64,000 bases of DNA, from positions 248,001-312,000 of the forward strand of contig MU128940.1 of assembly GCA_014904985.1 (NCBI GenBank), read 5' to 3'. Under the pieces are notes generated by a model. The model ran no database searches, was not told the DNA's origin, and saw only the letters and a program-made list of their open reading frames with translations. Below are positions 42,767 to 64,000 of the stretch, in pieces. Each line of letters starts with the position of its first letter. Within the stretch, counting starts at the first letter, position 1. Made by a program: the position numbers and the translations under genes. The DNA comes from Hydnum rufescens UP504. Lineage: Eukaryota; Basidiomycota; Agaricomycetes; Cantharellales; Hydnaceae.

Positions 42767-47213
<4,447 letters not shown>

Positions 47214-59483: not shown

Positions 59484-61018
59484 ATGTGGAAATCTATCTG
59501 CAAGCGTTTTAAACTCCCCAAGAAACCCAAGAAACAAGTCGCCGACGAACAAGTCGCCGGCGAACAAGTCGCTGATGAACAAGTCGCTGATGAACAAGTT
59601 GCCGATGAACAAGTCCCCGACGAGCAAGCCCCCAACGAAGAAATCCGCGACGAAGAGGTCCCTGATGAAGAGGTTTCCGATGAAGAGGTTTCCGATGAAG
59701 AAGTCTCTGATGAAGAAGTCTCCGATGAAGAAGTCTCCGATGAAGAAGTCTCCGATGAAGAAGTCACCGACGAAGAAGTCACCGACGAAGAAGTCACCGA
59801 CGAAGTCCCCCTCAAAGACAGGGTAAGAACCAACCGCTTCAGGATCCTCATACTTGGACCGGCGAACGCAGGAAAGACCACTCTGCTGGAACGACTAACA
59901 GACAGCCCTGCCGGTGCGGCCATAGTGACCCGGAAGGGACAACGTGTAAGTACTACAGTTGTTCGAACTAAGTAGAGATACTGGTCTAATGCATCCTTTT
60001 ATCTCTTAGATCCAGCAGGCCCCCAAGGGAGACGATCAAGTGAAGAGCCATCCTAGCAACGGTGCCAGGGTGCTTGACGTTTCCCTACCATCTAGCGAGG
60101 GATCCACAATATTGACGATGAAATCACGTACGCATCAAACCCTGACTTCGTTTTCCATGACTCTGGTGGTTTCGAGGCGGGAGGTGTCAAGGAGGTCGAG
60201 GCCGTCTGGAAATTTATTCGCGACCGCTCGTCAGCTTCGCCTTCACAGCAGTTGCATGCGATTTGGTGCGTTTGTCCATGCATGTTCTCACGTCATCATA
60301 CTTCAACTCATCGATTGCTACAGGCTCTGCATTCCAACAGATAATGATAGGCCCTTTGCATTCCTGCGGTCAGGTTTTTTCACGAAACCCACAGCGTCAG
60401 GTATGTCTCATGAGTCCCTGCGAATCGACCCTACGTGTGACGCAGTGGTCCGTGCATCCCTCAGTGCCTGTTATCGGGATTTTCACCAAGCTGGATGGAA
60501 GAGAGACGAAAGTGATGAGTGAGGTTGTCGGCGCTGATCCCAGTCAATCCGATTTCCTCGATTGTGCCCCGAAGGTGGAGCAGAAGGTGGCTGAATTTGT
60601 TAATCGGACTCGAGACACAATTTCGGGACCACCAGCACCCACCTGCTGGTTTCATCAGGGTCAGAGGTATGCATACTCTATCTGAGCCACAATTTTGGCA
60701 CTTAAATCTATGGCTTGAAGACATGGACAAAGTTAGTGAGCAGAGTGTGGCATTGTGCAACCAACTTCTTCAAGCCACTATGCATGCTCTTCCCAATGAG
60801 ACCCAGAGAGAATTGCTCAAGCTCACAGTTTGGAAAAGAAATCGCCGGGTTCATACCATATATGTTTTAGAACGGTGAGTCTGGATGTTCAATGGATTGA
60901 TAGTGATTAACAGCCATGGTTATTTTGTAGTGTCCTTGACAGTGGAGCTGAAGGTTCTGTCTCAAGCTGTATCAATGAGATAATGGTACAATTTGACTAT
61001 GTTCAGGGAACATTGTGA
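59484..61018 (+). CDS. Fungal G-domain protein with acidic pentapeptide repeat tail
   Basis: The ATG at 59484 begins MWKSICKRFKLPKKPKKQ, a basic N-terminus, then about 19 tandem 15-bp units encoding DEQVA, DEEVS and DEEVT pentapeptides (about 59537-59806). The G domain follows: FRILILGPANAGKTTLLERL (G1), GIHNIDDEITYASNPDFVFH with DSGGFEAGG (G3), WKFIRDRSSASPSQQLHAIW, LCIPTDNDRPF and VPVIGIFTKLDGRETK (G4). Helical C-terminal strings are QLLQATMHALPNETQRELLK and HTIYVLER, before an intron at 60875-60930. If the next exon is read through, the stop is TGA at 61016-61018. If instead a 53-nt intron (60954-61006) is removed, the frame stays open through GNIVTRIPGPGEDEE, QLHADSGFRILM and reaches the intron-like array at 61090 in frame. 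Paralogue of the adjacent, divergent pseudogene. Role unknown. Confidence 0.8.
59537..59806 (+). repeat. 15-bp tandem repeat encoding DEQVA/DEEVS pentapeptides
   Basis: About 18-19 in-frame copies. The 5' copies read GAACAAGTCGCCGAC-like (DEQVA), the middle GAAGAAGTCTCCGAT-like (DEEVS), and the last GAAGAAGTCACCGAC-like (DEEVT). Identical neighbouring copies in the middle show recent expansion. The product is a very acidic spacer between the basic N-terminus and the G domain. Confidence 0.9.
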
Positions 61019-61089
61019 CCAGGATCCCAGGACCTGGGGAAGATGAAGAAACCCAGTTACATGCAGATAGTGGATTCAGGATTCTCATG

Positions 61090-63981
61090 GTGAGTGACTC
61101 TGTCACTTGTGAGCAATGTACTGACTGTATCATATGCTGTAACTGTGGTAACTGGTTGTGACATTATTGGGTCATTGGATGGCATTGACAACATAGGAGG
61201 TATGGCAGCAGGCACTAAAATTTGTTCCATGATCACTGGCTTACATCATCTCTATTTGTGGCATTGACAATGCAGTTGGTCAGTCTAAATCTCCAACAAT
61301 GTGATACATGGTAGCTGGCTGATATATTTCCTGATGTCATTGGGAGCACAGTATGTGAGTGTGAACCTCCCACCATTTGATGCAGGCTGTTCTCTGATAC
61401 AACTTCTGGTGGAATCTGCAATGCAGGGGGTGAGTTTGCATCTCTTGGAATTTGATGTGAGATTGTTGTGATTACATCTTTGGGTGGCATGGAAAACCTA
61501 GCATGTGAGTGTGCATTTCTCACCTTTGGATCTGCACCATTGCCAGCTGATATATCCCCTTGGTCATGTGAACAATGTAGGAGGTAAGACTGCACCTCAC
61601 ATCTTGATATATGGTCACTAGTTGATAGAACTTTTGGTGGGATGAACACATAGAATGTGGGTTGGCTTCCCATGCCATTTGATGTATGATTAGTGACTGC
61701 CTATCTTTTGGTGGCATTAACACCATAGTTTGTATGTCCAGATGTCTTGGAATCCAATGCATGGTTGCTGACTGACAAATATTTTGTTGACATTCACAAT
61801 ATAGTATGTGAGTGTAGATTCAATATGAGGTCCTTGGCTGATATGCCATTGGTGGGATCAATAAAATAGGAAGTATGTTCATATTTCCAAGTATTCATGG
61901 GAGGTTGCTGGCTGATGCATCATTTGATGACATGGACACTGTAGTATGTAAGTTGGGGATTCCTATGAGTTGGCAGATGGTTACTAGCTGATCTGTCATT
62001 GGATGATGGATGATGGATGATGGACACTGTAGGAAGTCAGTGTAGATCTCTTGCAATTTGATGTGTGTGTGGGCTGATATTCCTTCCACTGTCATGGACA
62101 ATGTAGGCAGTAAGTCCAGTTCTCTCACAATTTGATCTGTGGTCCTTTGTTGATAGTTGATACATTGTTTGGTTCCATTGACACTTGCAGGCTGTATGTA
62201 TAGATATCTTCCAATTTGATGTGTGGTCACTAGTGGATTGTTTGGTGACACTGATAACATAGGATGTAAGTGTGGCTCTCCACCTTGATGCACCATCCCT
62301 GGCTGACACATCACTGGATAACATTGGCAACCAAGAATGTGGGCTCCTTTATGATTTTGTCTGATTGCTGGTTGATCCATTTTTGGTGGCATTCACCATC
62401 ACATAGCTGGTGGCAGCTTCTCTTACAATTTCATGCAGGATCACAGGCTGATACATCAATGGGTCAATGGGTGGTATTCACAATGTAGGATGTGAGTCCA
62501 TGCCCCAATCATTAGATGCTAGTTGATACATTGTTTTCAATGTCATCAACAATGTAGGATGTGAGTCTGGGTACCTCCCAGTTTGATGTGTGGGTGCTGT
62601 CTGATATATCATTGGGTGGGGTTGAGGAAATAGAAAGTAAGTCAATGTCACCCACCATCCATGGGTGATTGTGGGACTGATATGTTCATTGGTGGCACTG
62701 ACAACATAGAATGTAAGTCTAAATTCCTTAGTATTCAATCAATGCTGGTTGGCTGATATAGATTTGGTGGCATTGACAATGTAGGTTGTAAGTCTGGTTC
62801 TCCAATGTGACACACAAGTGTGGAGTGATATTTCTTTGTCTCACATGGACAATGTAGGAAGTAAGCCTGAATCTCCTACAATTTAATGCATGGTCACTCT
62901 CTGATACATTGTTTGGTCCCATTGACAATGTAGCATGTAAGTTTGGATCTCCTTTAATTCAATGTGGGGTCACTGCAATATATTCTTTGGTGACATTAAT
63001 AATGGAGGATGTAAGTTCTAATTGATACCTCCTTCATGCACAATCACTGGCTCATACATCTCTGGATGACTGTGACAACCTAGGCAGTAAGCCTGGCTCC
63101 CTTTCAATTTAGTGTGTGGTGCTGGCTGATCCCATCAATGGTATCAACATTGTAGCTGGTGGGTTCAGGACTCTCACAATTTGATGCAGGATTGCAGGCT
63201 GATTCATCATTTGGTGGCATTGACAATTTAGGAAGTGAGTTGCATTGCCCACCATTTGATATATGGGTGTTGGCTAATACATTCATTGCCTGGTATTAAA
63301 AATGTAGAGAGTATGTTGAGGTCTCTGGCAATTGAATGCATACTCAGTGGCTGACACATTCTTGGTGGCATGGACAATGTAAGGTGTGAGTTTGTGTCTC
63401 TGACCATTCATGGGGAGGTACTTAGTTGAGGTATCTTGGGTGACATTTTAGTATGTAAGTCCAGATATCATATTGATTGAGGCATGATTTCTGCCTGATT
63501 CATCTTTGGCATTGGCAACAAAGGGGGTAGGTCTGGAGGGTTCAATTCCATACCACTGCTGGCTGATTTCTCTTGTGAATGGGGTTGACAACATAGGGGG
63601 TAAGCTGGGATCTTTTAGAATTTGATGCAAAGGGCCTGGCTGATGGATGCTTGGTCACCTGAACACTGTAGGATGTAAGTCCATATCACACACCCTCAGA
63701 AGAATGGTTAACAGTTTATACATCTTTGGGTTGGCATTAACAATGTAGGAAGTAAGTGCAGATGTCTTAGAATTCAATGCATTGTCCCTTGCTGATTCCA
63801 TCTTTGGTGGCATTCAACAACATAGGGTGTAAGTTCTGGATGTCCTTAGAATGTGAATGCATGTCCCTTGCTGATTCCATTTTTGGTGCATCACAACCAT
63901 TAGCGTGTAGTCTGGATGTCTTAAGAATTGAATGCATTGTCCCTTGCTGATTCATCTTTTGTGGCATTCACACCATAGTAT
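61090..63981 (+). repeat. Array of 38 intron-like units separated by single triplets (candidate single-codon microexons)
   Basis: From the GT at 61090 to the AG at 63978 the DNA is a head-to-tail series of 38 related units. A typical unit starts GTAAGT or GTGAGT, contains ATTTGATG near its middle and GGCTGATA about 30-40 nt before its end, and closes ACAATGTAG. Lengths are 62-107 nt, mostly 66-76. Exactly three bases sit between each AG and the next GT at 36 of 37 junctions; at 63384-63385 there are two. First triplets: gag 61197, ttg 61276, tat 61352, ggg 61427, cat 61502, gag 61581. Of 37 triplets, 17 kinds occur (gat, gaa and tat five times each) and none is a stop. The unit start GTGAGTCTGGATGTTC is shared with the ordinary intron at 60875. 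The last junction (tat at 63979) lacks a following GT, and the array meets the window edge. Whether the units are spliced is not shown by sequence alone. Confidence 0.9.
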
Positions 63982-64000
63982 TAAGACCTGGATGTCTAGG

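Follow-up and report, generated by a model that had tools for sequence, protein, structure and literature searches.

Short fungal introns are recognised by intron definition, and in recursive splicing and stwintrons splicing proceeds successively, the product of one step making the donor of the next. Exons can also be very small. The micro-exon genes (MEGs) of schistosomes have micro-exons of <36 bp (26/33 symmetrical), and many of their proteins are secreted (PMC4671649). Two adjacent micro-exons of 5 and 12 nt have been reported (PMC8831610), and RPS24 has three micro-exons (PMC11162997, PMC12686416). Here, we describe a tandem array of intron-like units, separated from one another by single variable triplets, in a 64,000-nt stretch of the genome of Hydnum rufescens UP504, a mushroom of the Cantharellales (the window; C32:248001-312000 of the 63.2 Mb assembly, G000). 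The array is entered in phase 0 by a P-loop GTPase gene with eight ordinary exons on the forward strand (59484-61089). We conclude, at a probability of about 0.92, that the array forms the 3' portion of the coding region in a P-loop GTPase family, its introns being spliced one by one and single codons joined. In the open-licence literature searched, single exons of 1-3 nt are known and no run of dozens of single-codon exons was found; a word search of the main text of the genome paper returned neither 'exon' nor 'intron' (PMC7550596).

Results

The preliminary description of the window counted thirty-eight intron-like units of 62-107 nt from position 61090, and the sequence bears this out (~38 units). 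The AG-NNN-GT junctions span 61195 to ~63907, the shortest intron measuring 62 nt (61808-61869) and the longest 107 nt (61090-61196). The gap from AG to GT is exactly 3 nt at 36 of the 37 window junctions, the triplets take 17 forms and none is a stop, all as first described. The single exception (Table 1) is a 1-nt deletion at 63382 that is restricted to the window copy, the spacing being 3 nt in 12/12 other aligned copies. In order, the triplets read GAG TTG TAT GGG CAT GAG AAT TTT TAT GAA TAT GAA GCA GCT GAT AAT CTG GAT GAT AAA and continue AAT GTT GAA CAT GAT GCA CTG GAA AGA and onwards. A strict CTRAY motif lies 15-50 nt before the intron end in 20 of 32 window introns, and a relaxed motif is present in 31 of 34 units. 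Three features go beyond the preliminary description: the array passes the window end, running ~3.7 kb further to ~67651 in window numbering (G000:C32:315651), the whole gene is multi-copy, and distal units have many 2- and 4-nt spacings. The homogeneous part of the array, at 63900-67400, has many 1-nt indels, the 2- and 4-nt spacings among them, and in this it differs from several other arrays. These distal indels are either real decay or consensus error in a near-identical repeat, and the window copy itself is probably decaying rather than intact.

Evidence that the triplets are joined as codons comes from JGI proteins found by one GTPase search and two tail searches. The preliminary description had pointed to a transcript joining exon 8 to a run of the triplets, and such a join is present in nine proteins, all of them translated contigs from paralogues and none from the window copy. 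These nine pass from exon 8 into the predicted one-codon series with 131 joins in total, the first micro-exon (E) being directly joined to exon 8 in every one. The codons read past exon 8 number four in P0031, P0125 and P0128, eight in P0124, nine in P0123, 11 in P0122, 29 in P0035 and P0121 (probably the same allele) and 33 in P0032. Up to 33 consecutive single-codon exons are joined in proteins from public contigs. P0035 and P0121 read ...FRILM followed by ELYGCENDYEYKASDNLDHEKAEHDALED, and P0032 reads ...FRILM followed by ELYGLEDLYEYKTPQAHNLENENEEQHQLETVY. The series predicted from genomic DNA at locus L021 is ELYGLEDLYEYK-AHNLENENEEQHQLET-Y, to which P0032 is identical save for three extra codons (TPQ) after K, probably extra units in the source strain, and a micro-exon V missed by the parser. 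P0032 then continues VSPDPY and a stop, which is the next L021 intron read through. Ends formed by retained introns are identical to genomic loci in P0123 (L013), P0124 (L018), P0125 (L030) and P0032 (L021), and P0016, whose contig is as long as that of P0125 (1,304 nt), equals exons 1-5 of L030. Along the 131 joins, every micro-exon present at the matching or nearest locus is included; at the ends of P0035 and P0121, two micro-exons are seemingly omitted and an AG eight bases downstream is used.

P0032, P0035 and P0123 cross ordinary exon joints without introns and are therefore most simply derived from spliced RNA; from these missing introns we infer that the source contigs of the nine proteins are cDNA. 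A processed retrocopy was rejected as their source: none of the genomic matches listed for P0035 goes past query residue 145, so that its tail (residues 140-168) has no contiguous match among them. Among the proteins read, the ELYG... tail is found in JGI contigs only, and in DNA it is found in H. rufescens, the sole fungal genome searched. The NCBI models P0002, P0004, P0005 and P0011 run from exon 8 directly into the first array intron. In P0031, P0125 and P0128 the fifth array intron is kept after ELYG (compare L030 and L025), giving the similar hydrophobic end VSLxLxVxVRxLGVYLLxAWIT, which is a possible alternative C-terminus.

Constraint is evident on the splice signals, on the length of the triplets and on the absence of stops. 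The preliminary description had noted conserved splice flanks around a variable triplet and had argued from them against a neutral minisatellite, and both points hold. In a 13-copy alignment, 0/68 junction GT columns and 4/68 AG columns are variable, compared with 702/1956 columns of the intron interior, and nucleotide diversity (pi) is 0.000, 0.009 and 0.094, respectively. Within the branch-point-like motif, pi is 0.014 at the T and 0.028 at the A versus 0.13-0.14 at the first and third motif positions. Across 34 of the 37 window junctions (all but the final two and the junction broken near 63382) and 12 other copies, GT is kept in 408/408 comparisons and AG in 402/408, four of the six AG losses being in L009 and partly misalignment. 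Interior controls are kept in 1553/1860 (GT) and 718/900 (AG) comparisons, and these sites vary at an ordinary rate (112/310 and 55/150 sites). Gap cells, counted at window positions, amount to 0.276 per intron site versus one in total over 100 triplet sites. The triplet length is 3 in 440/442 cases, with one stop in 440, in a misaligned L009 unit.

A parser-free count over 33 loci (overlaps removed), with a score matrix built from the 13-copy junctions and hence not blind to them, places the first strong donor 3 nt after a strong acceptor in 1139/1195 cases; 277 further strong acceptors have no strong donor within 15 nt. These 1,139 exons of 3 nt contain no stop, with 36.3 expected by composition. 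Parsed arrays, for which the parser favours 3 nt by construction, have 1353/1444 exons of 3 nt and four stops versus 45.5 expected by composition (count without L011, L014, L017, L035, L036, L043 and L032, the window locus). Control triplets taken from introns at 40 offsets in 15 loci contain 1,372 stops in 27,000 (5.1%) versus 5.7% by composition, with single offsets ranging from 0 to 32%. The copies are related by descent, so that these counts are not independent events. A neutral minisatellite with even substitutions and indels is rejected by the near-invariant junctions, the 3-nt spacing and the absence of stops. Recursive splice sites of the zero-nt kind, in which AG abuts GT, are rejected by a distance of 0 in only 2/1195 cases.

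The same architecture is repeated across the genome. The GTPase part matches at 49 distinct places (count of match rows), and the array 3' end region is present at at least 39 places (best 40 candidates scored), 38 of the 39 extending into the last units. The window region has at least 12 further near-full-length copies at 82-93% identity. Eight stretches from the protein search all include the array start (five by parse, three by junction pattern) and add only the loci on C127, C9 and C147, with C9 occurring twice among the eight. A complete copy on the window's own contig (C32:9049-12700) parses without stops from ELYG to DD into 46 3-nt exons and a single 6-nt exon; its one long gap hides a V micro-exon that the parser skipped owing to a TAAG acceptor. 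In the array on C221 (L047), 88 of the 90 exons are 3 nt long, the other two being 4 and 6 nt, and stops are again absent. On C47 (L046), 94/104 exons measure 3 nt and the remaining ten 9 nt (three), 2 nt (five) or 4 nt (two); long stretches of this array match its own sequence at several offsets.

Arrays end in SMDLDD in 11/11 parsed copies among L032-L045 (three have no parse), and L046 and L047 differ, with PED and PEDLHN. After the 6-nt exon comes a 36-nt exon, GIKASVPLLKVL or a variant, open in 16/16 copies, and then 30-35 nt with intron-like ends and a two-codon end, the TAA being kept in 16/16; in L036 the acceptor before the terminal codons is CAT instead of CAG. Judging by this conservation, the exons after the array are probably the coding ends. 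The central micro-exons would then be flanked by longer exons, namely exons 1-8 on one side and the 36-nt exon and a putative terminal exon on the other.

The exon structure of the GTPase was derived by comparing 19 copies and, up to exon 8, equals that of NCBI models of paralogues (Table 1). That of exon 1 recurs in paralogues and in their NCBI models, for example P0004. The frame is open through exon 8 in 11/19 aligned copies (L002, L006, L007, L009, L011, L013, L018 and L027-L030), all 11 of which end exon 8 in phase 0. In the window copy, a private base at 60604, absent in 18/18 other aligned copies, breaks the frame of exon 5 and is either an assembly error or the mark of a pseudogene. 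P0004 was rejected as the model of the window copy, its GTPase sequence being that of L002, the copy at C32:8-13 kb. An earlier exon 6 acceptor, fitted to the broken frame of the window copy, was dropped on paralogue comparison.

Table 1 Features of the GTPase gene and its array in the window
Feature	Coordinates	Strand	Description and evidence
Exon 1	59484..59945	+	Start codon, acidic 5-residue repeats ([PS]DEEV type), P-loop ILGPANAGKTTLLERL; open frame, GT donor
Exon 2 (IQQAPKGDDQ)	60010..60039	+	Flanking AG/GT conserved in 19/19 aligned copies
Exon 3 (RGIHNIDDEITYASNPDFVFHDSGGFEAGG...)	60096..60265	+	Copy comparison, NCBI paralogue models
Exon 4	60324..60400	+	Copy comparison, NCBI paralogue models
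Exon 5 (VPVIGIFTKLDG...)	60465..60666	+	Copy comparison; frame broken in window copy
Exon 6	60721..60874	+	Exon 5-6 join present in JGI proteins P0032, P0035
Exon 7	60931..60953	+	Copy comparison, NCBI models, JGI proteins
Exon 8	61007..61089	+	Ends ...GFRILM, phase 0, at array
Tandem array	61090..63998	+	~38 introns (62-107 nt, GT...CTRAY-like...AG) between single-codon exons
Exceptional junction TAAG-GT-GTGAGT	63382..63385	+	2-nt exon; AG at 63382; private 1-nt deletion

The P-loop has the form GxxxxGKT as GPANAGKT, and by sequence the protein belongs to the agaricomycete G-domain GTPases, although for this protein GTP binding and hydrolysis are putative. The best match is to an H. rufescens protein (E 1.5e-160), followed by matches of 6.8e-41 and weaker in other Agaricomycetes, with named GTPase matches in Laccaria, Pisolithus, Mycena and Botryobasidium. 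Pfam gives a weak Arf match for P0005 (7.7e-5, just above the cut-off). By eye, the N-terminus (MWKSIRKHFK, acidic repeats and P-loop) is unlike a signal peptide. The acidic repeats of [PS]DEEV type are encoded by a 15-bp repeat present 18 times at 59536-59805 in exon 1, whose length is strongly variable among paralogues, some of which use another frame (KSPTK). In L005 (C243), upstream of ~60776 in window numbering, the 5' half of the GTPase is swapped for ~1.4 kb of unrelated sequence that by eye is DNA-transposon-like.

The array is almost devoid of CpG, with an observed/expected ratio (o/e) of 0.008 versus 0.91 in window positions 1-59000, and TG and CA are raised to 1.58 and 1.91. CpG loss with raised TG and CA typifies DNA that has been methylated and deaminated. 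C stands at the third codon position in only 4/1353 micro-exons, since a C followed by GT would make a CpG. The CpG-poor domain as a whole (60900-69600 in window numbering) has sharp bounds and an o/e of 0.00-0.20 in 200-nt bins, with one bin at 0.41; it begins at GTPase exons 7-8, spans the array and passes the conserved 3' end, with L031 supplying the part beyond 64000. Elsewhere in the window the ratio is ~0.9. Intron 6 of the gene (60875-60930, starting GTGAGTCTGGATGT) resembles the array units at a z of 8.6 against single-base shuffles, compared with -1.0 to 4.4 for the other six introns, a similarity that suggests the gene's own intron as a possible founder of the units. Elsewhere in the window, a 21/42/63-bp tandem repeat (TCGAGTACATCCCTTGCATCC) lies at 43152-43283.

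Discussion

The mechanism that we propose treats each repeat unit as a complete spliceosomal intron of U2 type together with a single codon. The units have GT...AG ends and a branch-point motif, and their flanking codons are joined in the JGI proteins, which we take to be cDNA-derived. Introns of ~73 nt would be removed singly by intron definition, the upstream exon gaining one codon per step. Because a 3-nt exon hardly accommodates two splicing complexes at once, removal should be sequential, presumably from 5' to 3': once intron n is out, its codon would end an exon of normal length, and intron n+1 would be an ordinary intron. A like argument has been made for the 1-nt exon of APC11 (PMC4674806). 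In intact copies the frame would be held through the whole array (~48 to >100 units) to the 6-nt micro-exon (mostly Asp-Asp), the 36-nt exon GIKASVPLLKVL and the stop, and translation of the joined codons would give a C-terminal tail in which Asp, Glu, Tyr, Gly, Leu and His abound. Through unequal exchange between repeat introns, this tail would change by whole codons and so may grow or shrink; such exchange is consistent with the additional codons in P0032, with unit numbers that vary and with the matching of L046 to itself.

Several observations weigh against this reading. The longest series stops at 33 micro-exons, and every one of the nine proteins breaks off in a retained intron or at an aberrant join, so that we can only infer full-length splicing and a productive message. 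Five further JGI/ENA proteins (P0017 and P0129-P0132) run directly into the first array intron, so that either splicing is often incomplete or these proteins are genomic. The GTPase frame is broken in 8/19 copies, L012 having no stop but a frame-breaking length and the seven others, including the window copy, several stops; some of these breaks may stem from alignment in the repeat-rich exon 1. In the parser-free count, 56 of the 1,195 distances differ from 3 nt, 32 of them being 2 nt, 11 being 4 nt and 13 having other values. Spacing is likewise imperfect in L012 (47/57 of 3 nt), L015 (54/67), L026 (8/15) and the distal half of the window copy, from either decay or assembly error, and the extended window array parses into 79 junctions of which 57 are of 3 nt, four of 6, 12 of 2 and six of 4. 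The putative intron before the terminal codons, at 30-35 nt, is short for a spliceosomal intron. The proposal of a single-codon micro-exon gene, made in the preliminary description, is supported for the family by the constraint and the paralogue proteins, with the qualification that the window copy is probably not intact.

The strongest rival concerns function and is compatible with the splicing mechanism. A runaway intron repeat could be spliced and still idle, its codons forming a tolerated, functionless tail and the frame being kept only for the downstream C-terminus (constructive neutral evolution). We give this little less than an even chance. Paralogue tails differ greatly in their middle and in length, and the C47 array matches itself at several offsets. 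In the 13 close copies, triplet pi by position (0.166/0.082/0.083) is about that of introns (0.094), with position 1 faster, yet length and stops are constrained. This near-equality also counts against coding, as the preliminary description had said that it would in a comparison of strains, although AG and GT are all but static. Among ten more diverged copies, by contrast, the first 11 triplets are less variable than introns (0.162/0.127/0.093 by position versus 0.236). They read ELYG.E..YEY, with the same amino acid in 10/10 copies at codons 1-4, 9 and 11 and in 9/10 at codons 6 and 10. The last codons are also conserved between paralogues (SMDLDD), though L046 and L047 end otherwise.

A second possibility is that incomplete splicing is purposeful, a retained array intron supplying the stop that acts as an off-switch or makes an alternative C-terminus. 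The ends of all nine proteins lie in array introns that are retained or joined aberrantly, and three of the nine retain the fifth intron. An excess of retention is nevertheless expected, since protein records end at the first stop by construction and are silent on introns downstream of the first retained one, and the avoidance of stops and the conserved distal C-terminus would be left unexplained. We regard this as unlikely.

That the array is an intron-derived satellite excised as one long intron, with the triplets absent from the mRNA, was an alternative in the preliminary description and now seems highly improbable. NCBI gene models do skip or read through the array, which resembles a CpG-poor repeat, but the triplets are present as codons in P0032, P0035 and P0121-P0125, unless these are artefacts, and under removal as one intron nothing would require the internal GT, AG and branch-point bases to be conserved. 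An assembly or pseudogene artefact of a single locus, to which the private base at 60604 and the poor spacing beyond 63.9 kb might point, is just as improbable, given the same architecture at many loci on different contigs and open frames in 11/19 aligned copies.

If the array is indeed spliced codon by codon, it marks a far limit for the smallness and number of spliceosomal exons, with intron definition operating on almost no exon, and would provide a natural system for testing in what order and how faithfully introns are spliced. One satellite would serve simultaneously as a series of introns and as a series of codons. Standard annotation would miss the C-termini of a large gene family, with NCBI models reading into the first array intron. 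We suggest tentatively, at somewhat below even odds, that the array is a coding device, in which one codon per exon in ~48 to >100 tandem introns permits unequal exchange within the introns to add, delete or reshuffle whole codons without frameshift and so gives dozens of GTPases private, fast-changing tails. This would amount to exon shuffling at single-codon resolution, achieved by the sequential splicing of an entire intron satellite.

Compared with known systems, the Hydnum genes are like schistosome MEGs in that the coding region consists mainly of tiny exons, most with a length that is a multiple of 3, is flanked on both sides by longer exons and is missed by gene finders (PMC4671649). 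Unlike in those genes, the exons are nearly all exactly 3 nt, dozens are consecutive, the introns repeat each other in tandem and the protein that carries the codons is a P-loop GTPase. Exons of one codon or less are spliced in Arabidopsis APC11, Fusarium CYP621A, Drosophila hth and plant groups (PMC12940212, PMC7392893), as in Hydnum; those cases involve one to three exons in ordinary genes, compared with ~48 to >100 in series here. With fungal introner-like elements the array shares multiplied, near-identical spliceosomal introns, but those elements occur in hundreds of copies in unrelated genes (PMC4457414), whereas the Hydnum introns, among the best candidates scored, appear to multiply in tandem within one gene family with one codon between them. 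Zero-nt recursive sites and nested introns leave nothing behind, whereas each Hydnum step would leave one codon. The 5' part of the gene is by its sequence a member of the agaricomycete G-domain (Arf/MMR_HSR1-like) GTPases, from which the Hydnum family differs, among the proteins read and in the one fungal genome searched, by the ELYG... tail.

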